Source: Pycnopodia helianthoides (Eukaryota > Echinodermata > Asteroidea > Forcipulatida > Asteriidae). From it: a DNA stretch of 64,000 bases. The notes beneath the pieces were generated by a model, which was given only the letters and a program-made list of their open reading frames with translations, was not told the DNA's origin and did not search any database. This document shows, in pieces, positions 21,001 through 45,400 of the stretch (positions within the stretch are counted from its first letter, which is position 1; each line of letters opens with the position of its first letter). The DNA lies in assembly GCA_032158295.1 (NCBI GenBank), contig CM063249.1, positions 13,496,078 to 13,560,077 of the forward strand, given 5' to 3'. The translations under genes and the position numbers were made by a program.

Positions 21001-24000
21001 TATTTGGCGGGTTTGTGGTTTGCAATGTTACACGATTTACATACAGTGCAGGGCCATAATATAACAATACTTTCACATTTTCGCTTTGTATGCCGCCCAG
21101 AGCACAGAGCAATTTGCAAGTTCCACATTTGTTCCTGGTAGGGGGTCACTACTGTCAACTTGTCAAGTGTCAATCGCGCATTGTCCAATGGCTCGGTGAA
21201 CCTGCACTCTTACGTGATATTTGGTACATCGTCTTATCAGCTCAAAAGTCTGTGCTGAGTCTGTGGTCAATTCTTACCACATCAGGACTCAATTTACAGA
21301 GTCGGTTTGGTTATTCTTCATTAATTCGGTGAGCCGGTCCTGGGTTTGGTTATTCTTCATTAATTCGGTGAGCCGGTCCTGGGACCGGCTCAGCAGAACA
21401 GTTTGGACTCGGTCTGGTGATTGCTAAATTGAAACCTGTTCTAATGATACATGTAACATCGTAGATATATTTTTTTCCTACAGTACTCGCCATCCTATTA
21501 CTCTCGTGTTCCTTACTGGATACAAGTCACACCTCCTAAATATCAGGTAAAATATCAAGAGTGCACTTAATTCTATGTCTGCAGGCAAACTACATGATTC
21601 AATGTAATAACCCGTTGATTATAGAGTTCATGCCAGGGCCCAATTTTATAGAGCATCTTAAGCACAAAAGTAGCTAAGCACAACAACATTGTGTTGACCA
21701 GAATAAGGTTGCCAGCCAAAGTATCATTCCATGTGTATCATCTGTGACTGTATCCTGCTCAGGTTTGCTTAGCAGGAAATTGTTAAGCACTTTTTGCTGC
21801 TTAAGCAGCTGTATGAAATTGGGCCTAGTACCTAATCCAAATACTTATCCTCTACTAAATTTGGTGTCAATCAAGGACAAGGAAGACGTAACGATGCCTT
21901 TCCCCACCATGGTCTGCAATTTCATTGAGGCAAACCTGGAGGAAGGCCTGTGGTTGAGAGCGGTGGAGAGCATCCAATCCTACTTATCTGTCAAGAAATA
22001 CCCTCCATCATCGTTACTACACGTCATCATGAGCAAGGTTTTAGAGGTAAGAAGTTGATCCTCAAGAAACCAGCTTTCCAATTAGCATGAAAGACAGTGG
22101 ATTGTACTTTTGTTTAATATTGTTTAAATCTGTTTTTGTATAACACTCCCATGGGCTTTTCAATTTTGTTTTCTCCCCCAATCTAGTCGACCATATATTT
22201 GAATTGCCTGCATAAATTTTGACTAACCCCTGTGACAAATATATCATGTATTTCCCCCCCCTTTTTCCCCATTTACTTATGATAGTGGAAAGACGTTGCT
22301 TTCACTTCCCGAGCCATCAATCTCTTAAAGTCTGTGCTCTGTGTCCATCGCCCGTCCACACCAGAGATGTCTCAGGTCTACCTTGAGTCTTTTGTGCCGT
22401 CTGCTGATAACGATTTGTTTGGTCTGGAGAGTGATGATCCCATCAACACACCATGGGATTTCATTGGTAGTGTCATTAGGTACCAGACTGTCTTTTGCTT
22501 TTTTTTCTTTCTTTCATTTTCTTTTCTTTTTTTCCTTTGTTAAAATTTCTACTGACATTCAGGGCCCAAATGTAAAGAATCTCCACTAGACCACAGGTCT
22601 TGTAATTCAGAACTTTTACTGGACCAGAATTTGTTTTACAAGACCCAAAAATATTTTGCTCTATTTGTAAACTTGCTTAACTTTGAAAAGGCAGATTGGA
22701 AATGATTAGTGTAAACACTCCACTCCGCTCTTGCGCTCAGGGTTCAGAGAAACTAGAGTACAGATATAAATTCCTCTAAATGTCTGCACTACGATAGCAT
22801 CATGCTTGAAACAGGATCCCAAGGACACCCACATGAGGGGAGTACTTGTGATTCCCCCATACATGTCAAATATTTGCATCTTTTTTACAGGAAGTCCTTG
22901 CAGCTGCCCCTAGAAGATTGTGAGGAGGATACAAAGGAGCAAGAGCAAGCTCAGCAGTCAGTCTTAAGGAACAATCATCAGATGTTACTGAGCTACATCG
23001 TAGCTCTAGTGGAGCAAGACTTCCAGGTCTGGGTGCATCGGTGAGTGATGTGGCTCGTATTTTTTTTTAAAGCAATCAAATTGACCCCTTGCATTGGCCT
23101 CCATTGCTGATGACAAACATTGCTGATGTTTAGTACTAGGTGGGGACAACAACCGAGCTGCTTTGACACCTCAGTCTTTGTTTTGAACCTCCCTATTGTA
23201 CAGCCAGCAGAATTCAACCAGCGAGGAGCAGAAATCATGTCACTGTATGCTGTCCGGTATTCTATGGCCAGATGGTCATGTCAAAGCGTCAGGTCCATTT
23301 GCCACACAGCTGATCAGCTTCATGCTTCAGGCTGTGGCGGCTATTGGGAGCGCATCACACATGGTGAGATACTCCATCCTACAAAACCCTTCATTCCTGT
23401 AATGTTGAACCACTCATTATTCATGGTTTGGAGTGATAGATACACTATGCCAGCCTGCAATATGTTGACATTTGGTGATTTCAGCTGTACAGTTCATGGA
23501 TAGTTTTATTATGGATAGTATGGATAATTATGTTATAATTAGTATATTATTAGTATCACTCTCTGTGGTGATGAAACCAATTGACCCTTAAAAGTGACTA
23601 TCACTGTAACCTGTCGGCCTGAAGATACATGTGAAAAGAAGGATGTATAGGCATGGGTATCATCCACTAGGAGCCTGGCTGGTAGAACAGAATGCACTAG
23701 CTTCCCAACTTTTTACGAAGCAGTTATGGTTAAGTGCCTTGCTCAAGGGCACAAGTGTCATGACCGGGATTCGAACCCACACTCTGCTGCTGGCAACACC
23801 AGAGCTTGGGTCCGGTGAACTAGACCACTCGGCCACGACACGCCACAAAATAAGGAAATGTCAGGTATATATGTGGGAGGAAAACCCTAAATGGGGAAAA
23901 CCCACTCGATCAAGTAGGGACTGAAAAACCAATCCACATTCAAAGCTCCAGTCCGGGATTCTAACCTGGGTCCACAGAGGTAAAAGGAAGGGAAGAAACC

Positions 24001-27000
24001 ACTGAGCCAATTGAACCTGCCCAGTTTTTACAAAGTGCAAGATGTCTTTAGACGGTGGCAGCATAGTGTCGTAGCTGATGGGGCATCTGCGCATGTATTG
24101 TATTGTTCTTAATAATACAGGAAATTTTAACATGTTTCCAAATTGTGGCTTCTGTGTGGGATTTACTTTTGACAATGATACTGATTATATGCAACTGTGA
24201 CAAAACCAAAGTAAATAAACCTCACATAGCCATATATTTACAATTTATGAACAAGATGTCAACATTCTTTTGTGTAGTACCCTTGCCTGAGGATGATAAT
24301 AAGTTTAGTGGAATTGGCCGCAGAGACCTGCAGAGTTATCACTGGAGACAGTAGCATATTGGGACACGCTGAGACCGGAGTCCATCTGGACTTCGCTGCT
24401 GAGATTGCTTCTATGCTATTGCAAGGTCAGTTTGATCAGTGGGTTTAGTCTTATATAGTGCACGTAGCTACCAATAAGGTACTTGCGGCACTTGAAGAAA
24501 CAAAAACATTTTAAGATAGATTTTGAATGTTTTGGAATTATCTCAATGATTTTTACACCTGCGTACATGTGTCACTGACCTGTAAAAAAAAGGTCAGGCC
24601 CGGTCGGCAAATGTAAGCAAGCAACAGCCACATGACGTAGCCAACCACTATGTTCATCACTGAGCATAAGGTATTTTAGCATTAATAAATGGACGATAAA
24701 TGGAAATAAATTGTTTCAATTTTGTTCTATAGAGGGCCTGGTGGAAAACATGGAATCTCTCAATGTTCTTCTGTCCCTCCTGCGACCTGATTGGTTAAAA
24801 CTGAAGGTGGTAGAGAGTTTGCTGTGTGCCTATGATGATAGCCTAGTGAGAGAGGATTTCAGAGATCAGCCTCTATCGCTCAGAAAAGTGGTACGCTTAG
24901 TTTTTGTAAATCTGTAAATCGCTAACATCTGCCAGAAGTTCTACAGTAAAATCAATATTTAGCTTATTTAAAACCATCCTACTGTCCTTAATATTAGCTG
25001 GTACAGTTCACAACCAAACATTCACAACTGTAGTTAGCTGCACAGGCTGTGTACGGTGGAGAAACTGCATGCGCAGAACTATCTGCTGTGCATTTACCAC
25101 ACATTGCAAGCTTGAATGGTGAACTGGCAAGCTGGTTTTCTTCTTTAAAAAAAAACACTGCACAAATTTAAGTGTGGTTGGACATTTACTCTTGCTTACA
25201 ACTATAAAGTTTCATGTCTGCAAAACCATACGATTGACAGGGTTCATGCCCAGGATTTCTTTAGTGGTGGAAAAATGTTTCCCTGGAAACCATCGCAAGA
25301 TGGATCAGTTACACGGTAGATCATATAAATAAACTCAAATCAAAGAAGTACTCATAATTAATGGCTTCAGATACCATTTTTACTGGTAAAAACCCAATTT
25401 TACATTTCGTTGAGAACCTTTGAAAAGGAAATTGCAAGTGTAATTAAAAAAATTTGAAAATGTGTGGTGGTCAGAAAAAGAGAAAATTCTGCCAGTGGTG
25501 GTTCGGGAATCCTGAGTGCCGGGCGGGTTTTCCGGCACCGACCACTGTGGGCAGAACCCTGGATTGATATTGGTCAGATGAGGGTTAAAATTATAAACAC
25601 ATATTGTAACGTCTGTAGTACAAGGGCTGTAGTGGAAGAAATAATTCCAACATTTTGGAGGATATAATATTCATGTTGTATACACAGTACAGGATTGATT
25701 AGTATCTCTAACAAAACTATTAGTTTCAATCTGAAATCTCACAAACTGTGAAGATAATAGCAGTACCAATCCTCCAGAGAAATATTTCCGTCTCAATTAC
25801 TGTTGGTTTGAGGAAATGGCATTTGAAGATCCATTCCTTTATTTGGGTTCTCGCACTGTGATTCTGAAAGTATTAAATATACTAGTGCAAGCCTGATACT
25901 TCACAGAGGGAGTTACCTCCATGCCCCTGGTCATTTCCTTGTTGCCCCCTTAAAAAGTTCCAGTAGAAATGTAGATTTCTCTTATAAAAGTGCCATTTAC
26001 TGTGGCAAACTGCCTTTCCCTTACAAGAACAAAGTGTAAGACCTGCTAATGTTGTGGTTTTTGTTTTAGGTGCAATTCTGTGTCCACTCCGGCTCTCTGT
26101 TTTACAAAGTACATGAGAAAAGTAAATTGTCATTTGCTTTCGTTCATGGTGTTTTTTTCTCTCCACAGGTGAACTATTATTTTTATCTGTTACCTCTGAT
26201 GACGACAGCTTCCCTGTCTGCTAGGACACCTGAAAAGCAAAACCAACCGATTATAACTAAGTCCAGGAAAAGACGGCATCAAGATACCGTCCAAGCTGGA
26301 CCTCTCCAGACTCTGGCGTGAGTATCAACTGCTGCAATTGTTATTCTTTATTTCTGGTAATCAAACCAAGGATGCCTCATAAGTGAACTTAACCACTAGA
26401 GGAAACCTGTAGGCAAGGGTGCTTGCCATGAAATGTTTGCCAATGCCAAAACAGAAATCATTACTCGATGGTGGTTTTCTAGGCACCCTGCTGAATGTAT
26501 CAAAATGCAACACAGTTGAAATGTAAAACCCGCTCAATGCAGCAAAATGCAACAGAGGACTCTGTTGTATTGTGAAGTGAACTGGTTTACACCAGCCATA
26601 GCACTGGGCATGTTTACCCAGCAAATTGCACCAATATGCATTGAAGTTTGCTGGGGACTGGGATTGCAAATGGACATGTCAAGGCAATGTAGAACCCTGC
26701 TAAATCCAGCACAGTGAAACAGAGTATGGGATTTGAGTTAACTGCTAATTGCCAAAAGGCACAACTTTTACCATATAAGATAAGACAAGATAAGATTGAT
26801 ATTTTAACAAACATTTATATCTCGCACTGGGGAAATTAAAACTGGCCTTTATTCAAACAGTACCAACAAAAACACTAAAATATGGAACATAAAACAAACT
26901 GAATGATTGATAGAACCAATAAAAGAAAGACAATTACATTTGTATTTGGCAGGGTTCGGTTGTAATAGACTACATCATGTCCTTATGTAACAGGGCCAAA

Positions 27001-30000
27001 AATCAAGTCAGGAAACAGCATTAAGATGAAGGTGTAATGTTTAACTCCATTTTTTCCACAGTGGAAACTGCGCGCAGCCAGCGCTGTACACAAAACTATA
27101 TCTTTAAAACTTTGCTCCTTACAGAGTGATGTCTTGTAACCAACTGAAGATTGTGAAAAATACCCACAGGAATCAAGTAGCCTACTGCATTCCTGGGCTA
27201 TGACTAACTTATGAATATACATGAAACAACTATAAATACAAAGGAATATGCAAATGAGTCTTTAGCGCTACTTGTGGTCACTCAAGTTCCAATAAACAAT
27301 TACATAAGGATAAGATTAAGATTGAACTTTCCCATGGATCCAATAAACTGTAAATTTGAAGATGTTAGAATGGCATGAATGAAAAAGAAAAGTAAATTAT
27401 AATAGAGTAAATATACCTCTTTGTTAAAAACACAGAGAATTAAGCAACCTAAAGCAGAGAAAACAAGACCATACATTTTTCACCTGTCACACTTAGAACT
27501 CAAGTGAGTGACAGGTGTTAGTGAAAACAAAAAAATTGGTTTATAATTTTTGATTTTTTTTTGTGACTGTTCGTATCTGTGCTTTTCAGGCAGCTTTTGA
27601 TTTTCCCTCACTCCTCACTTTCCTTAAATAGGGGTGCCATTTTTAACGATATCCTTTTTGTTTCCTGTCTGTATTGTCGGTATTAAAAAAAACATCAGCA
27701 ACTTACAAACACTGAAAGAGCGTCCAAAAATGAAAGTCAACAAAGTTAACCGCAGAAATATGAGAGGTAAATTATCGCCCTAGTGTCATCCCTTCACATG
27801 ATTAGTATACTGATATTGGAGTGCAAGTATCCACCAATAATGTGCTTAAGGCACTGGAACAAAGAGAAACACTTTTTAAGACAGGTTTTGAAGTTTACGA
27901 ATTACGAGACCCATTTATGTATCACCTTAAAAGGGTTTACAAGATGCTGCGACGCACTCGGCAGCCACTGCCATAAATACCTGGGCAAATCCCTTCTCAG
28001 CAATAAGTGTAACTGGGTTCTTTTACTTGCATTACACAACACACTAAATTTATGTGATTACACAACCACTCCCATTTTGCATCCCTATTTGCCCTTTGCG
28101 CGATCAGCCATTAATTGCGTGTAGAGCTTCCGATTGGGGATAGCAGTGAATAGAAGCATTATATAACCCTGTATTGTCACGGTAATGTAATAACACTTTC
28201 ATCCAAACAGATACATAAATATAATACAATGAAGCATGAAGTTGAGGCTCTACACGCACATGGCGGATCTGTGCAAGTAGTGAATGAAGATTTCCTTTGT
28301 TCTGGCTCTGTAGCAATCTTCCATAGACTTAGTTAACAAATTCCTTATCAAACATCCCTTTCTTTAGAACTCCCATGTGGAGACCTTATGGTACTATTGT
28401 CTTCGGTCTCCATTAGGTTGTGAATATTTAGACGTGTTTACATGTGTAAAATAACACACACAGATTTATTACAGCTTTTCTTTTTGAAGTCAGGTTGTGA
28501 GCGTTTATATTTCGGTATTCCAAGTGTCCCACACCAAACTCGTTCCCAGGGGTGATCGATCTCGCCGCACCATTTTATCTAGCATGCCTTGCTCGCATAT
28601 AACCCCAGGAATTGGTTCATTAAAATTTGCTCAAATCCAGCACATTTTAACTAGGCCTTTGGCCGATCCACTCTTTGCGCCCGCTCAAGTATGGTTACCC
28701 GCAAAAGAGGCCCAAAGACAAAGAGCAACTGGTCCCCTCTCATTCTTCTTTGGTTTTGTGATATGTCTAATTCATGCAGTTTAGGGTGACAGTGTAAAAA
28801 CATGATTCATTTGAAATGGAATCATGTTAAAATACTTGCATTTTCACACGTGCATACTAACATCCTATAAGCACTATAGAAGCGCTCAGAATTGTTAAGC
28901 AAGCGTGCAAGCAAAGTAGTCACGTTTGGCAGCCAATCAGTGTTGTTTTCCAGTAAATCCCTATGATTCATTTGAAATGGAGTTGCGTCAAAACACTTGC
29001 ATTTTCACACGCGCATACTAAGCGTCCTACAAGTGTCAAGCGCTCAGAATTTTTTAAGAAGCATGCATGCAAAGTAGTAATGTTCGGGAGCCAATCAGCA
29101 TTGTTTTTCAGTACATCCCTACCAGGGGTTAGTGACGAGAGGTATTGATAGGGCACGCTGGCCATGGTAGCGAGGCTGCTCCCACACACAATTCAAATAT
29201 TATCCTTCTTCTTTTTTTATATGAACTGTGATGGTCGAACAATTTAGACTTGTGCACCAGACTTAAGACTCTTTCAAACCATTATTGCTTTGTCCTTGGG
29301 ATGGGATGTAAAGTTTATAGGTCGGAGGTCCTATGTGCTGGGTAATGCATGAACAGAACCAATACACTTTATCTTGGGAGAGATTGGGTTTGCCTCAATA
29401 TTTCTGGCAAGGTTTGGTTGCACTTTGTTACCCTTATGAGGCGCTATAACCAAAATGTCATTCAGTAGCACCCATTTAATAGTTCGTTGTGTCAGTGCAA
29501 AAACGTTGTTCCTCCTAAAATAGCACTTGTTGTATCTTGCTTAAAATAGCTCGGATGTACACACAAAATAAGTAGTGCTGAGATACAACATTTTTGCACA
29601 GAGCATTTTAGTGTGAAATACAAAGTTTTCTTTGCAAAATCGAGATGTGATGTTTTTGAACTTACGCGACATGTTTCAAGTCTATGAGCACCTTCTGAAG
29701 AAACTGGTACAATTTAAGTGTTCAGCTACATTAGTAATTTTACTATTATGCTTTATATTGTATTGACAGGCGAGACACCTTTACATTTAGCCTGCATAAA
29801 AAACAATGTAGCTAAGGTACGAGAGTTGTTATCGAGTCCTGTCATCGAGATCAACCAGGTGGATTTTGCCGGTTGGACTCCACTTCATGAAGCTGCAAAT
29901 CATGGTCATGTTGACTGCGTCAAAGAATTACTGAAGTATCTACCAAAGGCCGCGATTGAATCAAATTTCTCTCCAGGTAAAATAAAGTTGTTTCCTGGGC

Positions 30001-33000
30001 CCAATTTCATAAAGAGTATATAAACATAAAATTTGCCAAATTGATAATAGTTTACCAGTCACAACAATTTGAATTATTTTGAATTAGATAAAGGCAAGAA
30101 ACCTGTGAGTGCGTTGAATCTACTCGCAGCCCCTGCTGAATGTGGAACAACCCCGTTGCATGACGCGGTTAATAACGGTCGTGTAGAGGTTGCAAGACTG
30201 CTTGTCAGAGCTGGAGGTAATACAATCTTTTTTGCATGCTTTTTAACTTGAAATCTTACTGATGCAGGCATGGGATTTTTCCTGATTTCAGGATTTTCTT
30301 TAAATGTCCTTCAAAGTAGTAAAGAAGTCACCAAAGGGAGAAAGAAATATCTAACACTGTGTCCTAACCCATAATTTGTATTTCTGGTAATGCACAGAGT
30401 CTGTAAACTTCATGAAATGTCAAAACTGGGAAGTTTTGGGTCTAGAATGAAGAGGAATCCAGGCCCAAGGAGATTCTTTAGGAATTTTCTCATATATCAA
30501 ATCTCGTCCCTGCGTATGACGTTTCACCATAAAAACAAAATTTGATTCCTGTGTTTTTGTAATTGTCTGACCAGGCTTTTCTAAATTAAATCTTAGCAAG
30601 AAAACCTGAACAAGTCAATAAGTTACTGTTCATAATGCGTTTTATGCTGTGAAAAGCTGAAAAACACTGTAAACACATTTTTTCCAAAGCAGCTTTCTCT
30701 TTTGGGTATTTGCAAATTGCATGTCTGAGGATTGGTATTGTTGTGAACTTCATAACCAGAATGTAATGATTTTTATTGCTGGGTCTCATTACATGGGAGA
30801 CCAGCTGTTGCCACTGAATAACAAACCAAGAAATAAATGTAACCAATCATGTGTTTTTGATAATTTTGGGGGGTTACCAAACCCTATATTTTGTTTTTAA
30901 ATCAACTAACTTGTTTTTCATTTCACAGGTAAAGCTGTTTTGATGGCACGTAACAAGGAGGGTTTTACTCCTCTGCAAATTGCCGCTGATGATGATGCCA
31001 TGAGAGTGCTCTAGATTTGAGCTCCATAATGGAATCTGAAACAACGATGCCAGGTAAAAACCACAATAAAGATAATGTAATGGATAAAGGTTATAAGTCT
31101 TGTACTGCACACAATGGAGATAAGGCTTCCAAGAAGAACAGTGGTTTGGGGGTTTATCTCTTTTTCATTTGCGAAAAACTAATGCAATGAGATTACTTGT
31201 GATAAAGGTTGAGAAATTATACTTGCATGAGTTGAAGCTAACCATTTAGTTATTTTAAGCCAAACCATTTCTTAATAATTTTTTCACCAGATTTTGAATA
31301 TCAGGAGTCACCCCCATCGCCTCCTTCCAATCATTCGCGGGACATCAGCATCCCATCTGAAGAGGAGTACAATTGTATGCTGGGTTCCTCAAATGGCCCC
31401 AAGGTGTACATACCAGCTGAGAGGTGTGAGCAGCTCTGCTTTCTGGCCTTTATTCAAACAGTACCAACAAAAAACTTAAAATATGTACCATAAAACAAAC
31501 TGATTGATGGATAGAACCAATAAAAGAAAGACAATTACAATTGGTGCACTTTGTTGTATTTGGCAGGGTTCGGTTGGAATAGACTACATCATGTCCTTAG
31601 AACTCAAGTGGGTGATGGGTGTTAGTGAAAACAAAAAATTTGTTTATTTTATGAGGTTTTTTGTGACTGTTCGTATCTGAGCTTTTCAGGCAGCTTTTGA
31701 TTTTGCCTCACTCCTCACTTTCCTTCATTAGGGATGCCATTTTTAACGATATTCTTTTTGTTTCCTGTCTGTATTGTCGGTACAAAAAAACAACATCAGC
31801 AACTTACAAACACTGAAAGAGCGTCCAAACAGCAAATATCCAAAGACTAAAATCAACAAAGTCAACCGCAGAAATATGAAAGGTAAATTATCACCCTAGT
31901 GTCATCCCTTCACATGATTAGTATAATCAAAGTAGTCACGTTTGGGAGCCAATCAGCATTGTTTTTTAGTACATCCCTACCAGGGATTAATGAGGAGTGG
32001 TATCGATACGGCACGCTGCAATGGTAGCGAGGCTGCTTCCACATACAATTCAAATATTATCCTTTTTCTTTTTTATATGGACTGTGATGGTCGAACGGTC
32101 TAGACTTGTGCACCGGACTCAAGCTCTGGAGTTGGTGAAGTGTGGGTTTTAGGTTTTGGTATTGCTTTGTCCTTTGGATGGGATGTAAAGCCATATGTCG
32201 GAGGTCCTATGTGCTGGGTAATGCACGTAACAGAACCAAGTACACTTTATCTTGGAAGAGATGGGGTTTGCTTCAATATTTCTGGATAAGGTTTGATTGC
32301 ACTTTGTTACCCTTATGAGGCGCTATAATCAAAATGTCATTCAGTAGCACCCATTGAATAGTTCGTTGTGTCAGTGCAAAAACGTTGTTCCTCCTAAAAT
32401 AGCACTTGTTGTATCTTGCTTAAAATAGCTCGGATGTAACACAAAATAAGTAGTGCTGAGAAACACCATTTTTGCACAGAGCATTTTCGTGTGAAATACT
32501 AAGTTTTGGGGAAAATCAAGAAGTGATGTTTTTGCACTGACGCAACAACTTTCAAGTCTATGAGCACCTTCTGAAGAAACTGGTACAATATGAGTGTTCA
32601 GCTACATTAGTAATTTTACTATTATGTTTTATATTGTATTGACAGGCGAGACACCTTTACATTTTGCCTGCATAAAAAACAATGTAGCTAAGGTACGAGA
32701 GTTGTTATCAAGTCCTGCCATCGAGATCAACCAGGTGGATAATTTTGGTTGGACTCCACTTCATGAAGCTGCAAATCATGGTCATGTCGACTGCGTCAAA
32801 GAATTACTGAAGTTTCTACCAAAGGCCGCAGTCGCATCAAATTTCTCTCCAGGTAAGATATAGTTCTTTCCTGGGTCCAATTTCATAAGATTTTATAAAC
32901 ATAAAATTTGCCAAAATTATAACAGGTTACCAGTCACAACAATTTTGAATTATTTTGAACTAGATGAAGGCAAGAAACCTGTGAGTGCGTTGAATCTACT

Positions 33001-36000
33001 CGCAGCCCCTGCTGAATGTGGAACAACCCCGTTGCATGACGCGGTTAATAATGACCATGTAGAGGTTGCAAGACTGCTTGTCAAAGCTGGAGGTAATACA
33101 ATCTTTTTAGCATGCTTTTTAACTTGAAATCTTACTGATGCAGGCATGGGATTTCTTAGGATTTTTCCTGATTTCAGGATTTTCTCAAACCCTCTAGGGG
33201 CCTTTAAATGTCCTTAAAAGGAGTTAAGCAGTCACCAAAGGGAGAAAGAATTATCCAACACTGTCCTAACCCGTAGTTCTGTATATCTGGAGTGCACAGA
33301 GTGTAAACTCATGAATTGTCAAACTGAAGTTTGGGTCTAGAATAAGGGGGAATCCAGGCCCAAGGATATTCTTTTAGGAATTTTCTCATATATCAAATCT
33401 CATCCCTGCTTATGACGTTTCACCATAAAAACAAAATTTGATTTCTGTGTTTTTGTAAAATTGTCTGACCAAGCTTTTCTAAATTAAATCTTTAGCAAGA
33501 AAACCTTATAGAGTCCAACAAATTACTGTTCAAAATGTTTTTTATTCTGTAAAAAACTTTAAAACACAGTATACCCATTTTTCCAAGGCAGCTTTCACTT
33601 TTTGGGTGATTGCAAGTTGCATGTCTGAGGATTGGTACTGTTGTGAACTTTGTAACCAGAATGTAATGATTTTTTATTGCTGGGTCTCATTACATGGGAG
33701 ACCAGCTGTTGCCTCTGAATAACATACAAAAAATAAATGTAACCAATAATGTGTTTTTGATAATTTTTTGGGGGTACCAAACCCTAGATTTTGTTTTTAA
33801 ATTAACTAACTTTGTTTTCATTTCACAGGTAAAGCTGTTTTGATGGCACGTAACAAGGCGGGTTATACTCCTCTGGAAATTACCGCTGATGATGCCATGA
33901 GGAGTGCTCTAGATTTGAGCACCATAATGGAATCTGAAACAACGATGCCAGGTAAAAACCACAATAAAGATAATGTAATGGGTAAAGGTTATAAGTCTTG
34001 TACTGCACACAATGGAGATAAGGCTACCAAGAAGGCTACCAAGAAGAACAGTGGTTATTGGGTTTATGTTCATTTGCGAAAAACTAATGCAATGAGATTA
34101 CTTGTGATAAAGGTTGAGAAATTATACTTGCATGAGTTGAAGCTAACCATTTAGTTATTTTAAGCAAAACTATTTCTTAATAATTTTTTCACCAGATTCT
34201 GAATCTCAGAGGTCACCCCCATCGCCTCCTTCCAATCATCTGAGGACATCGGCATCCCATCTGAAGAGGAGAACAACTGTATGCTGGCCGGTCCCTCAAA
34301 TGGCCCCAAGGTGTACATACCAGCTGAGAGGTGCGAGCAGCTCTGCTTTCTGGCCTTTATTCAAACAGTACCAACAAAAATACTAAAATATAGAACATAA
34401 AACAAACTGAATGATTGATAGAACCAATAAAAGAAAGACAATCATTTGTATTTGGCAGGGTTTGTAATAGACTACATCATGTCCTTAGAACTCAAGTGAG
34501 TGACAGATGTTAGTGAAAACAAAAAATTGGTTTATAATTATATGAGGTTTTTTTTCTCACTCCTCACTTTCCTTCATTAGGGATGCCAATTTTAACGATG
34601 CTATTTTTGTTTCCTGTCTGTATTGTCATTATAAAAAACAACATCAGCAACTTACAAACGCTGAAAGAGCGTCCAAACAGCAAAGATCCAAAGGTGAAAA
34701 TCAACAAAGTCAACCGCAGAAATATGAGAGGTAAATTATCGCCCTAGTGTCATCCCTTCACATGATTAGTATACTGATATTGGAGTGCAAGTATCCACCA
34801 ATAATGTGCCTAAGGCACTGGAACAAAGAGAAACACTTTTTAAGACAGGTTTTGAAGTTTACGAATTACGAGACCCATTTATGTATCACCTTAAAAGGGT
34901 TTACAAGATGCTGCGGCGCACTCGGCAGCAACTGCTAGAAATACCAGGGCAAACCCCTTCTCGGTAATAAGTGTAACTGGGTTCTTTTTTGTGCATTACA
35001 CAACACACTGAATTTACGTGATTACACAACCATGTACGGCCATTCCCATTTTGCATCCCTATTTGCCCTTTGCGCGATCAGCCATTAATTGCATGTAGAG
35101 CCTCGAATTGGGGACAGCAGTGAATAGAAGCATTATATAACCCTGTATTGTCACGGTAATGTAATGACACTTTCATCCAAACAGATACAAAAATAGAAGA
35201 CAAATAAAGCATGAAGTCGAGGCTCTACACGCACATGGCAGATCCGTGCAAGTAGCAAATGAAGATTTCCTTTGTTTCAGCCCTGTAGCATCCTTCCATA
35301 GACTTGGTTAACAGTCCTTGTCATTATCCCTTTTTGTAGATTTCCCTGTGGAGACCTTATGTTCCTATTGTCTTCGGTCTCCATTAGATAGTGAATATTT
35401 AGACGTGTTTACATGTGTAACCCATACAGATTTATTACACCTTTTCCTTTTGAAGTCAGGTTGTGAGATATTTTTATTTCGGTACTCAAGGCCTCACACA
35501 CCAACCTAGTCTTGGTTAAGACTCTCCTGTTATTAATACCTTCCCACGATAATTATATCCATCGCCACATCGCCACAAGAGGGCGCGCTCTCCCCATGGA
35601 CCGATCATGGGCTCATTCGCTATCTCCTGTGATAGCGGTTCTCGGGGCGATAGCGGTTCGTGGTTGATAGCGCCCTCTAGTGGGGAGCTTTCGGCGCTTT
35701 CAAGATAATAAACAACAGGAGAGTCTTAACCAAGACTAACACCAACCCTGTTCCCAGGGGTGACCAATCTCGCCGCGCCATTTTGCCTATAGCATGCCTT
35801 GCTTGCATAAATTATAACCCCTGGAATTGGTTCATTAAAATTGGCTCAAATCCAGCACATTTTAATTTGGCCTTTGGCCGATCCACTCTATGCGCCCGCT
35901 CAAGTATGGTAACCTGCAAAAGAGGCCCAAAGACAAAGAGCAACTGGTCCCCTCTCATTCTTCTTTGGTTTTGTGATATGTCTAATTCATGCAGTTTAGG

Positions 36001-39000
36001 GTGACAGTGTAAAAACATGATTCATTTGAAATGGAATCGTGTCAAAATACTTGCATTTTCACATGTGCATACTAACATCCTACAAGTGCCATTAAAGCGC
36101 TCAGAATTGTTAAGCAAGCATGCACGCAAAGTAGTCACTTTTGGGAGCCATTCAGCATTGTTTTTCAGTACATCCCTACCAGGGGTTTATGATGAGAGGT
36201 ATCGATACGGCGCGCTGCAATGGTAGCACTGATGCAACAACTTTCAAGTCTATGAGCACCAAGATACTGGTACAATATAAGTGTTCAGCTACATTTGTAA
36301 TTTTACTATCATGTTTTATATTGTATTGACAGGCGAGACACCTTTACATTTAGCCTGCATAAAAAACAATGTAGCTAAGGTACGAGAGTTGTTATCAAGT
36401 CCTGCCATCGAGATCAACCAGGTGGATAATTTCGGTTGGACTCCACTTCATGAAGCTGCAAATCATGGTCGTGTCGACTGCGTCAAAGAATTACTGAAGT
36501 ATAAACCAAAGGCCACAATTGCATCATATTTCTCTTCAGGTAAAATATAGTTCTTTCCTGGGTCCAATTTCAAAAAGAGTACTAGGACCTTAGGTGTTTG
36601 TGAAAAAACACAAAGCTGTTCCGTTTTGTTTTAGTTTGATTAAACGCTCTGTATTAAGCTAGCAAACATCACAAAGATTATGACTTTATGACATGTGGTT
36701 CAGGAGATATGATTTTTAATATTTGAACTTCCTGTTTGGACCGGAAGAGTGTCAACAAGGGGTCATGGCCAAAGTTCAATGTTTAATGCTCAAAGGATCT
36801 ATAACTGAATGAAAATTGGAAATCGGGTGTGTACTTCTTGAGATATGGTCCCACTTCCGGTTGACACAGAAGTAAAGGTCAGCAAAGGGTCACGGTAACC
36901 CAAATTCAATCTTCAATACTCAAAGGGTCTATAACTGAAAAGAAATTGAAATCGGGTGTGTACTTCTTGAGATATGGTCCCACTTCCGGTTGGCCCAGAA
37001 GTAAAGGTCATCAAGGGGTCACGGTAATCGAAGGCTAATCTCCAATGCCCAAGGAGTCTATAACTGAAAAAAAGTTTGAAAATCAGCTGTGTACTTCTTG
37101 AGATATGGTGCTGCAAAGATTAACTAATTAAAGCTTTTAATTGCTGTAATTTAACACCTGATGGCGTCACAGTTTTTCATACTAATAAATTTCATAAGGT
37201 ACAACTACAAGATGGTTTGTAACTTATCTCAATCAAATGCCTTAAAAAACACCCTAACTTTTCATAGCATATGTTGGTCACGCACAAATCCAATGGGGTG
37301 TGTACAAACCAATTGGTCAACCTTCGGTTAGGAATAAACGTGGCACAATCTCCAACGCATTGCCGTGATTGCGCAATACAGAGTTTGTTTCATGGGGTCA
37401 GATTTACAATCTTAAATCGTTAATTATCATGAAACTGCATTGTATTTGATTATTTTTAATGGCCAGGATTATCTTTTAAATAAAAGCATTTAACTTTCAA
37501 AACACTATATGTGATTTAGGAAACTATAACAATTAACTTATTCAGAAAAAAATTGTGTTTTTGACCAGCAAAATAGTTACACTTTTAGCGCCATGTGTTT
37601 TGTACACAGATACAAAACGCGTAATAAATGATGTCATAGTGACGTCGTCCGTAATTTTAGGCCGGAAATCAGATAAACAGTATTCCAGAAGTCTAAATCT
37701 GAAAAAAGTTTGACGATCGGGGGTATACTTTTTGAGATATGGTTCGAACAAGGTTGGCTAATTAAATATTCATCTTGCTGAAACAAGGCTAATTAATTAA
37801 GAATGTTAACATTTATTACATTTAGAGTTAAGTTTATGTCCTAAGCTTCAATTTGATATTTACGCTTTAGAATATTAGGCTTAAAGGAAAAACGTGTACA
37901 AATGCTATGGGATTTAGGTGGAAACAAAGAATAATAATAAGAAGAAAAATAATAAAAATCTTGACGAAAACAAACCTGTTCCAACTTCTAGAAGTCGGAA
38001 CAGCTAATAAACATAAAATTTGCCAAAATGAGGTTACCAGTGTTAAAAATTTTGAATTATTTTGAATTAGATAAAGACAAGAAACTTGTGAGTGCATTGA
38101 ATCTACTCGCAGCCCCTGCTGAATGTGGAACATCCCCATTGCATGACGCCGTTAATAACGGCCATGTAGAGGTTGCAAGACTGCTTGTCAAAGCTGGAGG
38201 TAACACAATCTTTTTAGCATGCTTTTTAAATTGAAATCTTACTGATGCATTCATGGGATTTCTTAGGATTTTTCCTGATTTAAAGATTTTCTCAAAATCT
38301 GTCAGAGCAAATTTTCTTTAAAGAAGTAAAGCAGTCACCAAAGGTAGACAGAAATATCTAAACACTGTGTTCTAACTGTAGTTTTGTATTTCTGCTAATG
38401 CACAGAGTCTGTAAACCTCATGAATTGTAACATCTGGGAAGTTTTGGGTCTAGAATAAAGGGGAATCCAGGCCCAAGGAAATATTTTAAGGAATTTTCTC
38501 ATTTATCAAATCTCGTCCCTGCTTATGACGTTTCAAAAAAAACAAAATTTTATTCCTGTATTTTTGTAAGTGTCTTACCAGGCTTTTTTAAATAAAATTG
38601 TCAGCAAGAAAACCTTAACAAGTCAAAAAATTACTGTTCAAAATGTTTTTTATTCCGTACAAAACTGAAAAACACAGTAAACACATTTTTCCAAGGCAGC
38701 TTTCTCTTTTTGGGTATTGCAAGTTGCATGTCTGAGGATTGGTATTGTTGTGAACTTCATAACCAGAATGTAATGATTTTTTATTGCTGGGTCTCATTAC
38801 ATGGGAGACCAGCTGTTGCCTCTGAATAACAAACCAAGAAATAAATGTAACCAATAATGTGTTTTTTGATAATTTTTGGGAGGTACCAATCCTATATTTT
38901 GTTTTAAAATTCAACTAACTTTGTTTTCATTTCACAGGTGAAGCTGTTTTGATGGCACGTAACAAGGCGGGTTATACTCCTCTGGAAATTACCGCTGATG

Positions 39001-39617
39001 ATGCCATGAGGAGTGCTCTAGATTTGAGCACCATAATGGAATCTGAAACAACGATGCCAGGTAAAAACCACAATAAAGATAATGTAATGGGTAAGGGTTA
39101 TAAGTCTTGTACTGCACACAATGGAGATTAGGTCCCCAAGAAGAACAGTGGTTAGCGGGTTTATCTCTTTTTCATTTGCAAAAAAACTAATGCAAGGAGA
39201 TTACTTGTACTCAAGTTTGAGAAATAACCGTTTAGTTATTTTAAGCAAAACCATTTCTCAATATTTTTTTCTCCAGATTCTGAATCTCAGAGGTCACCCC
39301 CATCGCCTCCTTCCAATCATCTGAGGCACATCGGCATCCCATCTGAAGAGGAGTACAACTGTATGCTTTGTTCCTCAAACCGCCCCAAGTTGTTCATACC
39401 TGCTGAGAGGTGTGAGCAGCTTTGCCTCCTGGTCTGCCACCTTCTGCGGGCCTGCCTGAGAGCGCATAAACTGGTACCCATCAAAGCCAATCTTGACAAC
39501 CAGCATAGATTGGTGGCAGGTTGTGATGACCTCGATGAGACGTCAGAAGCGGGTAGTTCCAAAGCAAGCTCACAAGCATCAGTACGCTATGAGATGATGA
39601 CGTCACCTGTCCAATGA
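15062..39617 (+). CDS. SLF1: SLF1-like protein (BRCT/ankyrin SMC5/6 recruitment factor), downstream tandem copy with triplicated ankyrin block
   Basis: Coding exons before the ankyrin block: 15062-15211, 15897-15975, 16373-16619, 17257-17440, 18896-19016, 19832-20334, 21484-21546, 21876-22046, 22286-22479, 22891-23040, 23204-23363, 24278-24425, 24733-24890 and 26169-26317; all phases agree. The start at 15062 is the first ATG after an acceptor. BRCT 1 covers residues 17-105 (GGKYLECK, CTHVVCK, SEKFLCGCASGKWIVSPDFI, GRWLEEANYEWG). BRCT 2 covers about 134-220 (GWNVAIL to PGYILEYLLE). A Ser/Pro/Gln-rich linker with an LTRSP minisatellite follows, then helical regions and the ankyrin block. Candidate ankyrin-region exons: B 27699-27766, 29770-29976, 30088-30216; C 31800-31882, 32646-32852, 32964-33092, 33829-33951; D 34648-34730, 36333-36539, 38071-38199, 38938-39060, 39277-39617. 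Using D only gives about 1119 residues, close to vertebrate SLF1 (about 1058 from memory). A 1-nt insertion near 39606 gives an early stop. It may be functional, shortened or becoming a pseudogene. Confidence 0.8.
15250..15430. repeat. Foldback MITE, gcttaagcag family
   Basis: Begins catagagctgcttaagcag and ends gctcttaagcagcttgatga, with internal tggtaaccttgttctggtaagca. Related copies are at 21636-21827 and 58571-58767. Confidence 0.6.
15700..15800 (+). repeat. SINE-like fragment with B box
   Basis: aatggcaaaggttgtgggttcgaatcccac contains a good pol III B box (ggttcgaatcc). The same head recurs at 57820-57855. Confidence 0.5.
16834..16978. mobile_element. Foldback MITE in SLF1 intron
   Basis: ctcaggcatgcaact at the left end is the exact complement of agttgcatgcctgag at the right end, with subterminal tttcctctttttt tracts on both sides. 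Confidence 0.65.
17632..17860 (+). repeat. SINE body/tail in SLF1 intron
   Basis: The stretch accagccaggcccctagtgg followed by atgatacccatgcctacatcctt is also the tail of the minus-strand SINE at 23640-23848, so both belong to one SINE family. The tRNA-like head is missing here. Confidence 0.55.
18540..18826 (+). repeat. Intronic minisatellite built on ctcttttcagag
   Basis: Fifteen copies of ctcttttca at 15-21 bp spacing, 13 of them continuing as ctcttttcagag; two have ctcttttcaaatg. Higher-order order (cagctc / ttggctc / ctggctc variants) is visible. The array ends 70 bp before the real acceptor at 18894-18895. Confidence 0.9.
20071..20265 (+). repeat. In-frame 15-bp coding minisatellite (LTRSP repeats)
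   Basis: Thirteen consecutive 15-bp units (ttgacccggtcacct and variants) inside the SLF1 linker exon. In the frame of the upstream coding sequence it reads seven LTRSP, four LTLSP, one LTWSP and a last LTRS. 15 is a multiple of 3, so other frames also stay open, including DPVTF on the plus strand and VKGDR-type readings on the minus strand, which are by-products. Repeated S-P and T-x-S sites suggest a disordered, phosphorylatable linker. Confidence 0.9.
21305..21382 (+). repeat. 39-bp tandem duplication
   Basis: Two adjacent copies starting gtttggttattcttcatt (21305 and 21344) and ending agccggtcctgg, within an SLF1 intron. Confidence 0.85.
21636..21827. repeat. Foldback MITE, gggcccaatt family
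   Basis: Left end gggcccaattttatagagc and right end gctgtatgaaattgggcct are imperfect complements; the inside has gcttaagcagc and ccagaataaggttgccagcc as in the copy at 58571-58767. The right end lies just before the SLF1 acceptor at 21874-21875. Confidence 0.7.
23640..23848 (-). repeat. tRNA-derived SINE
   Basis: On the minus strand it begins gtcgtggccgagtggtctag (A box tggccgagtgg), then gggttcgaatcccggtcatg (B box), then acttgtgcccttgagcaagg and a tail shared with 17632-17860. The head resembles a tRNA-Ser/Leu. Confidence 0.8.
23925..24030 (-). repeat. Second tRNA-like repeat next to the SINE
   Basis: On the minus strand caattggctcagtggtttc (A-box-like) precedes caggttagaatcccggactg (B-box-like). 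A related head is at 17130-17215. Confidence 0.5.
25010..26045. other. Intronic segment present only in SLF1 copy B
   Basis: The intron between exons 24733-24890 and 26169-26317 is about 1.28 kb, against about 0.23 kb (1723-1951) in copy A. The flanks align, so roughly 1 kb was inserted here or deleted there. No coding or terminal repeats are recognised inside. Confidence 0.55.
28801..29120 (+). repeat. About 160-bp tandem duplication in module B
   Basis: Two copies, from atgattcatttgaaatgga at 28802 and 28963, each running to gccaatcag...agta.atccct. Module D has one copy (36017-36176), so the doubling is specific to module B or was lost elsewhere. Confidence 0.8.
29225..29475 (+). repeat. 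SINE-like repeat, second copy at 32090-32360
   Basis: Shared order: tgatggtcgaac, cttgtgcacc, ttgctttgtcc, ggatgtaaag, ggaggtcctatgtgctgggt, then acccttatgaggcgctata. This is the body of the tRNA-SINE family (compare 48671-48930) with a decayed head. The module C copy keeps ggactcaagctctgg from the head. Confidence 0.55.
31447..34358 (+). repeat. Ankyrin/C-terminal module C of SLF1 copy B
   Basis: Second direct repeat. Exons: 31800-31882 (internal acceptor), 32646-32852, 32964-33092, 33829-33951 and a truncated last exon from 34196. Ankyrin exons are open and phase 1 to 1. The last exon lost one G near 34244 (ctgaggacatc against ctgagggacatc), which shifts the frame, and it ends at the same junction as in module B. 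About 1.2 kb of intron present in B (roughly 27810-29070) is deleted. Confidence 0.85.
35498..35747. mobile_element. Complete MITE (35507-35738) with 9-bp target duplication
   Basis: Perfect 25-bp terminal inverted repeats starting tagtcttggttaagactctc. acaccaacc is directly repeated at 35498-35506 and 35739-35747. Module B has the unoccupied site, with one such sequence (about 28522). A 9-bp duplication is typical of Mutator-like elements. There is no coding capacity, so it is non-autonomous. Confidence 0.9.
36582..38007. mobile_element. Non-autonomous Helitron/Helentron-like insertion in ankyrin intron
   Basis: About 1.43 kb between ankyrin exons of module D, absent in modules B and C and copy A (flanks aagagta and taaacataaaat join there). 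5' end: ggtgtttgtgaaaaaacaca then agctgttccg. 3' end: AAT/AAG-rich tract, hairpin ttccaacttctagaagtcgg, then CTAAT. It matches the architecture of the element at 3286-4138, and both contain cttgagatatg and ccggaagt motifs. Confidence 0.55.
36727..37115 (+). repeat. 130-bp tandem repeat inside the Helitron-like element
   Basis: tctataactga recurs at about 36798, 36928 and 37058 (130-bp spacing), each followed by ttgaaatcgggtgtgtactt-type sequence, cttgagatatggt and, in the first two, cccacttccggttg. A diverged further copy is near 37680-37745. Confidence 0.8.
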
Positions 39618-41110
39618 AGCCGCCTTTCAGCAGAGCTCCTTGCGGGTTAGTGGGTCCCGCCTTCTTGACGACTTGACCGAAATGTGCAGACTTGATAGTC
39701 ACGTTGATGGTTTTGTTCATCACATCGGACGTATTGGTCCATGGGTTGGATCGCAGCGCAGCAAAATATGTAACAAGGTTGTTTTTGAACTGAAAGCACT
39801 TGCACTCACTTGCTTGTAAATAATTAATTTGGTCAAGGACCAATGGCTCAATAAGCTACATGTGTTCATCATATTGCTCGGGAAATTTATTTGTAAAGCA
39901 GATCAATAGCGGGGTACCAGTTGCCACAATGAAAACAGCGTGGTACCAAAATAATGATGTACTTTCCCTCTGAAAATTGCTCTGAGCAGAAAAGTGGGAC
40001 CTGGGCACAATGTCATGTAAAGCTTTCTAAGCAGAACAAATTGCTTAGCAGAAACAGTTTACAAACTGAAATGTCATGTGTAACATTTGTGCCACTGGTA
40101 TACTGCGAACTTTTTGATCAGAAATACAAATTCTAAAGTCATGGCACATTTTAATTATTTAACTGTTTTCTCCAAAGTTCAATGCTTTGGGGGAGTCATA
40201 AGTCCTCGATATCCTAGACTGGACCATTTCACAATGGGGTATCTCAGGTCCAAGAGTTGTGTTGTTTGTTTGTTTGTTGTGTTTGTTTGTTTGTTTGTTT
40301 GTTGGTTTGGGATTTTTTGAGGGGCTGGTCAATATTTTCACTCATAAACTTTGTGCACAAAATTGTACAGCCATGCAGACCTACCCAGATCTAACCATCT
40401 GATGAAAGTGGAACCATCTGTTTTTTTTGTAGCAGGCTTCCAGAGTTCTTGCTGACAGCCTGTGCTAGGTTCTGAGTTTCCAACATCCCGCCCCCTCTCC
40501 GCCAATCAAACTTGTTGGCTTACTGGGGAACCAATACTAGTGGAACCTTCCTGCATTTGTGTAATCTCTGGGGTTACACTTGCTTTTAATGGTAACATTT
40601 TTATGAGATGTGGCACGGTGATTTTTGTATACCAACTTCACAGAACTGGATATTGTAACAGGTTGATGTAGAACATGTTATTGTTTTGGAGTGTAGTAAG
40701 ATACATTAGAGTGCCCACACAGAAAGGCTACCAGCCTTGTGTTGAAATAACACTTCTACAAAGACCAGCAATAAAAGTACACACTGTATTGTTCCATGAT
40801 TCCATGCATTGTACATCAAACAGAAATGAAGAGTTAGTTCCACTCATTTTAAAAACAGCTATTTTTATGTTGTATATTATTAAACGCCATGTGCAATGTA
40901 TAAACATTTTGTACATAGACTTTTTGGTTATGGTTGACTAACATGGCTGATTTTTGTGTGTATAAATAATTATTTTATAGTTATGCTACTGTAAAGGACT
41001 TGCCTGAAACATTTAAACCATTATTTGCAAACAGACTTTACAATAAAAATGTTTTAGTTTTCCAAAGTGCGTAATTGAAGACTGCTCCACTTGTTATGGT
41101 TTACTAACAT
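39618..41110 (+). other. 3' flank of SLF1 copy B
   Basis: Up to 39815 it still aligns with the coding tail of copy A, now out of frame. Beyond, it aligns with 6209-7205 apart from about 0.65 kb unique here (39965-40658). That insert holds a (GTTT)n microsatellite and a gcttagcag-type repeat. The duplicated sequence ends near 41110. Confidence 0.6.
40255..40305 (+). repeat. (GTTT)n microsatellite
   Basis: gttgtttgtttgtttgttgt followed by further gttt units. Confidence 0.9.
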
Positions 41111-41680: not shown

Positions 41681-42469
41681 TGTGAAGTTTTGTGGCAGGC
41701 CTGATGTTTCATGGTCATGGTCATTGCCTTGCCTTTAATATGTTCCAGATACAAATTGTTCAAATTTTTTTTTCAATCATAGAAGTGTCATCGTTTCAAA
41801 GGTTGTCTGAGGGAATAACATTGATGAGGAGTTTCTTTTTCAATTTCCAAAAGTGAAAAGAGAATTTCAGCTAACTTGCTTATTCTATATATTCCACATG
41901 ATTTCTTTGTAGTGAATTCACTTTATTCAAATGAACCTATGGTTGAAATTTCTTAGGGGTACTGATTTTAATCAATAAAATAAAGAAACGCAGTTGAAAT
42001 GAAGCCTTAACTATAATTTGTTTTCTTTGCGGTTGTTTTTTGTTTATTCATATAAAAGAGTATTTTTATGGTTTATGGATCTGTGATTATTTTCTATTCA
42101 TGTCAACCCCGACCCCAAAACACACCTGTAGGTAGGCGTGGTGAAACCATGGTTCAAGCCATGTATCTCGCAGAATAATATTTCTGTCTGTAAAAGTAGT
42201 ACTTTACTTTAGGCCTACGAAAGCGAGTGTGTTAACAAATCATAGAGCAATGGTTAAATACAACCCCAAAGCTCTGGGATTGACGGTTAGTAGATCTACA
42301 TCATTGGTCGATGACAAACAATATCTTCTTTCAAATTCATCTTATTCTTATGAATGGTCTGATTGTATCGAGCAATACATTTTATATTATTTATTATTTT
42401 TTGTAAATGACCGCCTTTGAAATATGTTGTGCGCCCTCAAGAGTTTCTGTACGTAAAAGCTCATCCAAG

Positions 42470-45400
42470 ATGGCGGCGTCCTCTGATGTGAAGTCTGAGC
42501 ACATGGAGTCGCAAAAAATGACCAAGAAACGATTGAAGTCGGTAATTTCTGATATTAAGCAGGAGGAGAAATTGTTCCTTGGCAGCCGGGAACATGCTAA
42601 CTCTCTGGTAGAGCTACTAGAAAAAGTCCAGGTGAAGTATATGAAAATAATTTCGTTCCTAGGAACTCTGCGTGGTGATGGATGGATGGCCGTCGTATCC
42701 GTACGGCCGGATGCAATTGCCATCCCACATGATACAAGAATCAGATATATTGGCCAATGGCCATTGCGATAATCGTAAACCTCCATCCTCCCGACAGTCG
42801 CGGAATGGAGGGTTACGATTATTGCAATATATACGCTTCCTACTCCTCGTCTCCTAGATTAGAACTATACCATGTATGAGTGACTGACATGACTGAGCTG
42901 AGGTAATCATATTCATAACCATGCCAGAAACCATATGACAACTAATCTTCGCTTCCTACAGACAGAGAATGCAGAAACGTTGTGCTAACCAGCAGTGTGA
43001 AGCGGAGAACAATGTCTAATTAATTAGATACAGCAAAGCACATTACAATGAGGCCCTCTCCAAAAAAAATGTCTGCTTTTTACACCAGTGGTAGGGAGGT
43101 CGATGGGTTTTCCATTTTTTGACAAAATAAAACAAGTTTGGTACCATTGGAAAGCTTATCTCGAACGAAATCTAATCTGCTAATGGTAGTAAAATCAATC
43201 ATTTATCTTTTTAAAGATTGGGAGATATTATAATTTTAATAAGTTTGTTTAATACTTTTGTTTTTGTCGTCAGATTTTTTTTTTTTTTTTTTCTTTTCGT
43301 GACGGCAACAATTTTTGTATAATATAAATGTTGAAATTATCAATAAAAACCCTTAATTTAAAGGTCTTTGTCAAAACAATTGTCCAAAATATTTTTAAAA
43401 ATAAGCGCATGTACCTTTATACAAAAATTTCCAGGTCTCCCTGTAGTCATTCATATATTTATTAGTGGCAATAATATGACAGCCAAGTTTGATCACAGAA
43501 CTAAGAACACCATTCTCAATTGTCAAACAAATGACCCCATGTGGACAGCTTCAATAAGTCCATAAGACTGAAAAAATCTGTCAGGACCCCCTCCTCTAAA
43601 TCTTAAATGCGCAGCTATGAGCAGCTACCTAGCGAAGAAACAAAGATATGCACATGATCACGAAGGTATAAGCTTTATGAAAATATGAGTTTTGTATAGG
43701 TTTTACAAAATAAAATGAATGATACCAAAACAGTCTAAAATATCAATCAAACTGCTAAATTGTGAAAGGAAACGTCTTCAGCTAACCACAGATGATTTTT
43801 TTACATCAAAATTTGCACTTAAATTATGTCTTTTGGGTGAGTTTTCACAAGCTGTTTTCGTGTAGTAACAGATACAAATCACGATTGAGGCCTTTCCGTT
43901 GACCTCCCTACCAGTGGCTGGTAGGCATAGCCATGAAATTTGGCCCAGTTCCATTCACAGTTTCTGAAAAACAATGTCAGAATTTCAACTTTGAGAGGAC
44001 AAGGCCATTTTTATTTTGAAAAGAGCACGAAGGCCAAGACCATGGGGACTCGGTTTATAATTCCAGGCCTGAAATGTAAATAATGTGATGATACCCAAAC
44101 TACTGTACCATATTATTTTCAGCATTGAAAGCAGTTTATTTATTTCTCACATTGCAGTCTGACAATACAGACATAGCAAGTGCTGCTTTGAGGAGCCTTG
44201 TGCATGTGTTCACCACTCTGTTCAACAGAGATGTCATGACGTCCAGCAAAACACAGACAAAGTCTAAGGAGGAAAGTATGGAGACCTCAGAGGCCAACCC
44301 AGAAGAGCAGTACAAGGACTGGCTTCACAAGAGATATAGCGACTGCTTGAGATGTTTTTCTCGATTGATTGAAACCTTCACAGATGCCCCCACTGCTGTT
44401 CAGGTGAGTTTGACCAGACTAAAAGTTAACCATTTAGACACCATGGCCTTTTCTTCCCAAAGCGTGTTTGATTTTGCTTGTTGTTTTTTAGCAAATCCTT
44501 TTCTTGATAATAATAATAATAATCTGTTCTTATATAGAGTGCTTTTCACTCACGAGGGGTGTTCAAAAGCACTCATTCTTTTGTTAGAGGTATGCAGAGC
44601 TATGTTTGAAATAGACAAACCTTTGCTTGATGTAGCACCTTTTAATGGTTTTATGGTGGTGCAAACTTAATGCAGCCTACAATGCCAGAAACACCCGGCT
44701 AGCCCCATTTCTTAACTGGGTTCTGTTATGTGCCATACACAACATACAGTACCAACAGCTTTACGTCCCATCCTGAGGATGAAGCAAATGGTCAAGTGTC
44801 TTGCTTATGGACACGGGTATCTAGACTGGGACTTGAACCCGTACTTTGCTGATCAAAAACCCCAGATCTTGAGTCCAGTACGCTTGTAAAAAATTGTCAA
44901 AATATCTGAAAAAATAATATGAAACATAATTGTTTGTCTTTCCTTTTTTTTTTTTAAGTTTCAATAATCTGAAGTTAGTAAACATAAGAGCATTGTAAAT
45001 TCACGACATGACCTGTTTGGTTCAATATAATTACTGCTAGGTCAAACTTTGAGGTCGTTTGCATTTTATGTAAGGGCATTTCAGAACAAGCTATTTGCAG
45101 CCCCTATGGTCTCATTATTCCTACTCATCAAATTTCCTTTTTTTGGTGTCGTGGCCGTATGTTTTTTTTTACTCAATTTCCGATGGCCGAGTCAGGTGCT
45201 GCATACTCCTAAGGAGTTGAAGAATGTTTTCAAAAATGCTTCAAAAAGTCCTATTGAACAGAGGTAAAATTAGTTTACCGTGCGTTGATGACCATTTTCT
45301 TTTTGCTAATTTTTTAAATAAATATTTTGGTTATACAGGAATTAGCTCTGTGTAGTTTGATGAAACTGCTGCAGGTCGAGTCCAACCATCCATTGAGGAA

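Follow-up and report, generated by a model that had tools for sequence, protein, structure and literature searches.

By reading the unmethylated H4 tail, SLF1 recruits SMC5/6 to newly replicated chromatin that is damaged. Among the closest described systems is the human protein (ANKRD32), whose ankyrin domain (ARD) has been crystallised with H4K20me0 (PDB 8pef), the source of the six contact residues used here, and binds nucleosomes in isolated form at 1-5 µM (PMC11551741). The same paper treats the ARDs of TONSL and BARD1 (PDB 5ja4 and 7lyc) as H4K20me0 readers of the same type. Human SLF1 also depends on the region after the ARD, the C-half of a split Nse5-like domain, as a construct without it failed to bind SLF2 (PMC9708086). 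The 1183-residue SLF1-like protein P0001, which has one ankyrin module and was used as a tblastn query on the window, resembles the human protein in two parts, with residues 831-975 aligning to residues 4-128 of the 136 in 8pef and residues 21-179 matching the SLF1 BRCT structure 8ir2 (E 4.8e-28). The TONSL and BARD1 structures are likewise among its PDB matches and represent other proteins, not SLF1. Human SLF1 has one ARD, as do the closest named relatives among the matches listed, Patiria miniata P0002 and Acanthaster planci P0003, whereas the locus described here contains three ARD blocks with a longer ANK2-ANK3 stretch. In this it resembles the sea-urchin gene models P0164, P0165, P0166 and P0044, which carry tandem SLF1-type ARD modules with nearly all contact residues kept.

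The window, meaning the whole 64,000-nucleotide stretch of Pycnopodia helianthoides DNA that was analysed, holds two SLF1 copies arranged head to tail on the plus strand. Copy 1 (gene 1) is represented by its 3′ part at 1-6207, comprising exon x10 (cut, 1-107), x11, x12, the pre-ankyrin exon P and exons E1-E4 of ankyrin module A, as delimited by tblastn of P0001, exon borders and comparison with gene 2; no frame lesion was seen in this part. Copy 2 (gene 2) runs from its first coding exon at 15062 to about 39.8 kb. Its BRCT and N-half exons x1 to x11 (15062-24891) were placed by tblastn of P0001 and splice sites, with x1 at 15062-15211, x2 at 15897-15975, x3 at 16373-16619, x4 at 17257-17440, x5 at 18896-19016, x6 at 19832-20408, further exons between x6 and x11, and the end of x11 at 24891. 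The open exon x12 (26169-26317, plus strand) follows; it is 149 nt long, starts in phase 0 and ends in phase 2. Gene 2 keeps the introns between its exons, as does gene 1 where both are visible, and has therefore not lost them in the manner of a processed pseudogene. The identification of the host gene as SLF1, made in an earlier sequence-only reading of this DNA, is borne out by the N-terminal tandem BRCT region, where x1-x4 align to residues 1-221 of P0001 with 74-83% identity, by the ARDs described below, and by a composite query of the window's SLF1-like exons, which matches SLF1 of P. miniata and A. planci with 47-48% identity.

P0001 was considered as the product of either gene and rejected, as it differs from both exon by exon, with about 56-96% identity to the window exons by tblastn (some stretches include intron ends) and the exception of 35 identical residues within x10 of gene 1. 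From this comparison it would be a paralogue in the same genome encoded outside the window. Several open reading frames lie around the two SLF1 copies. Between them are ORFs on the minus strand at 10037-10511, the first of which resembles a HECT ligase only below significance (E 0.46), and downstream of gene 2 are two long ORFs (42407-42769 and 44092-44667) that may be exons of another gene. A Pfam scan of the latter two gave no match, and 44092-44667 had no meaningful PDB match; nine ORFs of the window scanned against Pfam gave no match, two of which (21678-22046 and 23114-23500) overlap gene 2.

The ankyrin region of gene 2 consists of three modules, B, C and D, on the plus strand, and a fourth, intact module, A (4448-6207), terminates the separate upstream copy. 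Module A has E1 at 4448-4654, E2 at 4771-4899 and an exon 4 that is open through to its stop (5667-6207). Module B (26842-31446) has P at 27699-27766, E1 at 29770-29976, E2 at 30088-30216, a frameshifted E3 at 30929-31053 and an E4 that starts at 31291 and is truncated at a duplication junction (31443-31446). Module C (31443-34353) has P at 31800-31882, E1 at 32646-32852, E2 at 32964-33092, E3 at 33829-33951 and an E4 that starts at 34196, loses its frame and is then truncated at the second junction (34350-34353). Module D (34350-39818) has P at 34648-34730, E1 at 36333-36539, E2 at 38071-38199, E3 at 38938-39060 and an E4 that extends over 39277-39818 by homology and reads only to a stop at 39615-39617. 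The self-comparison matched a stretch of about 1.4 kb in the first intron of D (36581-38006) to nothing in B, C or A, and within this stretch a sequence of about 230 nt is repeated (36751-37109).

The sequence-only reading had described B, C and D as repeats of P, two ankyrin exons and exon 3, and this description agrees with the exon borders and with self-BLAST, in which 29070-31925 matches 31928-34773 over 2.9 kb at 87.5% and other long pairs among the three modules match at 85-94%. The exon ends that it gave at 30216, 32646, 33951 and 36333 are correct, and its starting point, 26842, is the start of the duplicated unit. The lengths that it gave for E1 and E2, 207 and 129 nt, their phase 1 ends and their openness hold in all four modules, where these exons also have AG/GT borders and are free of indels. 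Its further statement that the block is built of phase-symmetric exons holds for E1, E2 and the E3 of C and D, and fails for P and for the E3 of B. E3 measures 123 nt in both C and D, 120 nt in A and 125 nt in B, where it is frameshifted and contains a stop; outside B it is in frame and in phase 1 at both ends. Two modules of gene 2, C and D, are thus complete in the sense that E1-E3 are open, and B has open E1 and E2 and a broken E3.

The pre-ankyrin exon runs from phase 2 to phase 1 and is 68 nt long in B and 83 nt in A, C and D, counted from the acceptor CATCAG. Substitutions have removed the upstream acceptor AG (TGTCAG in copy 1), leaving GG in B and C and AT in D, and CATCAG, 18 nt downstream, keeps P in frame and open in all copies. 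In silico splicing of P between modules introduces stops, so that the P exons of C and D must both be skipped in any joined product. With this done, the splice B1-B2-C1-C2-C3-D1-D2-D3 proposed in the earlier reading gives 418 codons without a stop.

All four modules keep equivalents of the acidic pocket residues E808, D838, W842, E847, N850 and D881, and the spacing from E808 to the next four contact residues (30, 34, 39 and 42) is identical in P0001 and the modules. Based on these contact residues, modules A-D are predicted H4K20me0-reading ARDs. Of the 45 columns that at least 90% of 23 outside rows conserve, A departs at one, B at none, C at one and D at two, B being scored over E1 and E2 only. 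In a tree, the window modules group with P0001, Patiria and Acanthaster (97/96).

The architecture of the repeats points to their origin. The duplicated unit begins at 26842, in the intron ahead of P, and extends to the middle of exon 4, where a CTGG microhomology with 26842-26845 lies at the junction. The B/C and C/D junctions are identical, in that exon 4 breaks at CTGG and continues into the intron sequence starting at 26842, and B4 and C4 accordingly end at a duplication junction and not at a donor. The presence of one junction twice is explained by a single tandem duplication followed by unequal exchange. The segment of gene 2 from the intron before P to mid exon 4 would have been duplicated in tandem at the CTGG microhomology, and unequal exchange would then have copied the unit again to give B, C and D, the order of steps being the one suggested by the junctions. 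Divergence between copies is 4-13% intron by intron and, for pooled introns 2 and 3, 10-17% over all copies (a deletion in A raises the values of its pairs) and 10-11% among B, C and D. Alleles would be expected to differ less than this. Some substitutions in E1 and E3 are common to C and D, others unite B with C, and the E3 exons of C and D are 99.2% identical while the adjoining introns are 89-91% identical; the shared substitutions and the E3 identity indicate that the copies probably exchanged sequence, with some gene conversion. For ankyrin proteins in general, duplication of four repeats at a time was the more dominant pattern in one study (PMC1553488).

Selective constraint on the ankyrin exons was assessed against the introns of the same modules. 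Among B, C and D, the introns contain 28 indel events in 1023 columns, whereas E1 and E2 contain none in 336 columns where 9.2 would be expected (P 1e-4, Poisson; 3.5e-4, conditional binomial), with events of at least 60 nt left out and the first intron of D not used. Substitutions in E1 and E2 are also below those of the introns for B-C (0.060 vs 0.102, P 0.012) and C-D (P 0.002), and not clearly fewer for B-D (P 0.083). For E1 and E2, pairwise dN/dS between the four modules ranges from 0.45 to 0.83, on 3-7 synonymous and 8-17 nonsynonymous differences per pair, suggesting that the constraint was loose. As E1 and E2 have no indels where the introns predict nine, the ankyrin exons of B, C and D were probably all translated after the triplication, and the modules could have formed two to three H4K20me0-reading domains of a single protein or served singly. 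Gene conversion was considered as a cause of the exon preservation and would account for the missing indels only if it stopped at exon borders.

A contiguous ankyrin stack, two to three times longer than in a single module, had been predicted from the in-frame splice and was rejected. The B2-C1 join sets ANK3 and the next ANK1 24 residues apart, and the C3-D1 join passes through the last, capping repeat. The usual length of an ankyrin repeat is about 33 residues. The predicted structure of the sea-urchin protein P0044 (Diadema antillarum) contains three better-predicted ankyrin domains at about 41-183, 234-369 and 421-559, each with a short weak loop, separated by linkers of low confidence (model from a three-sequence alignment, mean pLDDT 56.6). 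This model favours beads on a string over a longer stack, and a Foldseek search with the whole model returned generic ankyrin proteins with low TM-scores among the 50 matches listed, as expected for separate domains.

The rest of gene 2 bears lesions that bear directly on whether such a protein is made. In x6, a 12-unit array of 15 nt (20081-20260), which is open in two frames and lacking in P0001, is followed at its 3′ edge by a frame change near 20260 and a stop at 20347. In D4, an additional base near 39606 leads to the stop at 39615-39617 and the loss of about 70 residues; beyond the shift, the DNA still differs from copy 1 at just 6 of 210 nt, an identity of 97%. The frames of B3 and C4 are also lost. 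The x6 break lies ahead of the N-half of the Nse5-like domain by position, and the C-half is broken within D4 and truncated in B4 and C4; given these lesions, both halves are not obtainable in one frame, and no combination of the recognised exons of the assembled gene 2 gives full-length SLF1. By analogy with the human protein, the frameshifts would remove Nse5-like parts required for SLF2 binding. Exon 4 of gene 1 is open, and most of the N-half of gene 1 lies outside the window. No protein resembling a multi-module product was present among the 120 matches listed for candidates of about 304-968 aa (best identity 57%), and among the 43 matches listed for candidates of about 567-1804 aa only P0001, with its one module, was close.

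The reading to which about an even chance is given is that gene 2 is a recently decaying tandem copy of SLF1 with a formerly translated, triplicated ankyrin array. Gene 2 would have lost its frame in x6 and D4 after the triplication, the whole protein is probably no longer made, and full-length SLF1 function would be left to another copy. Besides the frame lesions and the truncation of B4 and C4, this reading draws on the missing upstream acceptor of P, on the search result and on the dN/dS between modules, which exceeds the 0.34 found between gene 1 and gene 2 over more exons. Several observations speak against decay. No stop has arisen by substitution in the gene 2 exons matched to P0001, so that decay is either very recent or only apparent, and each lesion is a small indel next to a short run or a tandem array, a setting in which assemblies can err. 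Against decay of long standing, between gene 1 and gene 2 through D there are three indels in 1494 coding nt vs 21 in 2316 non-coding nt, the latter limited to alignable stretches, and dN/dS is 0.34 (28 synonymous and 33 nonsynonymous differences; more exons included, x12 excluded), which places the frame loss in the recent past or attributes it to assembly error. The near-identity of the D4 tail to copy 1, the CATCAG acceptor that keeps P in frame and the multi-ARD models of sea urchins also argue against decay. If the lesions are assembly errors or are bypassed, gene 2 would work and encode an SLF1 with two or three ankyrin domains as beads, in which each domain would hold an unmethylated H4 tail and nascent nucleosomes would be gripped by several arms. 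This possibility is consistent with the symmetric, in-frame phases of E1, E2 and E3 (except in B), the lack of indels in E1 and E2, the retained contact residues and conserved columns, and the two to three ARDs of the sea-urchin models, but it is considered unlikely in view of the two frame breaks outside the array, the need to skip P of both C and D, the 24-residue spacing that breaks the ankyrin register at B2-C1 and the lack of a corresponding protein among the matches listed. The longer SLF1 envisaged in the sequence-only reading is conceivable in principle and gains from the exon phases, the sea-urchin parallel and the indel-free exons, and loses from the frameshifts in x6 and D4 and from this search result.

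A quite improbable alternative is that each transcript takes a single module, x12 being spliced to the P exon of B, C or D, and B and C ending in their own truncated exon 4 to give short SLF1 forms that read chromatin without the SLF2-binding half. The phase 2 end of x12 fits the phase 2 start of P, which is open from CATCAG everywhere, the B4 frame stays open past the junction for about 15 codons, up to the stop at 31491, and AATAAA occurs at 31519 and 34426, about 75 nt past the junctions. Against single-module use stand the missing upstream acceptor of P in all three modules, the disrupted frames of B3 and C4, and the x6 break, which affects short forms as well. Tandem repeats are a known trap in assembly, and the array could in principle consist of duplicated haplotypes with no real counterpart in the genome. 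Haplotype duplication as the main cause was rejected on the pooled-intron divergence among B, C and D, and an artefact is made very improbable by this divergence together with their different internal deletions, their common junction with microhomology and the absence of N in the window. Beyond this locus, it is tentatively proposed, as a broader and somewhat doubtful reading, that echinoderms repeatedly multiply the H4K20me0-binding ARD in one polypeptide and thereby give SLF1 a multivalent grip on newly replicated chromatin as a reader, and that the array in the window is the asteroid instance, its two to three joined domains having been translated in the past or being translated still. Should multi-ARD SLF1 exist as protein, nature would offer a test of whether additional H4K20me0 readers in a molecule affect how tightly nascent chromatin is marked by the repair complex.

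The sea-urchin proteins provide the comparison for the array of gene 2. An SLF1-type ARD stretch of at least 100 bits was found in 34 of 273 collected proteins, six of which contain more than one stretch; this ratio does not represent a frequency, as the set was gathered with multi-ARD queries (the joined modules and an alignment of three sea-urchin proteins) from the best 120 matches per search, and the profile was seeded by six single-ARD proteins also counted among the 34. The multi-ARD entries, which are gene models or assembled sequences, include four from Strongylocentrotus purpuratus, namely P0164 (isoform X3; three ARD starts, the first without the ANK3 part, and one module that apparently lacks the E2 segment), P0165 (isoform X5; two ARDs), P0046 (two ARD starts, the first partial) and P0045 (LOC100892411; two ARDs). 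The other two are Lytechinus variegatus P0166, with two ARDs, and Diadema P0044, which has three ARDs and no BRCT part and is the only sea-urchin model in which three are complete. Nearly all sea-urchin ARDs are complete, and all six contact residues are present in 26 of 28 ARD rows compared, with P0164 (its short first module) and P0045 (module 1) supplying the two exceptions. P0167 and another Diadema protein, P0168, have one ARD each. P0164-P0166 contain BRCT domains and, by eye, parts flanking the ARDs on both sides, in contrast to the frame lesions of gene 2, and their linkers include, also by eye, a pre-ankyrin-like segment, whereas P of gene 2 is out of phase. These models point to sea-urchin SLF1 proteins that contain two or three ankyrin domains. 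Literature searches on multi-ARD SLF1 found no paper, in some of them among the 20 matches listed. In the tree, the modules of Lytechinus and those of Diadema P0044 each group by gene with strong support (99/99 and 100/99) and the S. purpuratus modules do not form one group, suggesting either that ARD amplification was separate in these lineages or that copies were homogenised.

Unusual domain combinations were also observed in individual models. P0045 combines BRCT, two ARDs and a precomputed PF08073 match, and may be chimeric. The partial Coregonus suidteri sequence P0072 contains two similar reader-type ankyrin domains (351-461 and 530-640), with S at the N850 position. P0187, a model from a Branchiostoma floridae x japonicum hybrid, is of BARD1 type with the BARD1 RING and BRCT and has two nearly identical ankyrin domains (687-807 and 872-992), both with D..GWTPLHEA.N and PLHD, and the H4K20me0 reader may have been duplicated in BARD1 as well.
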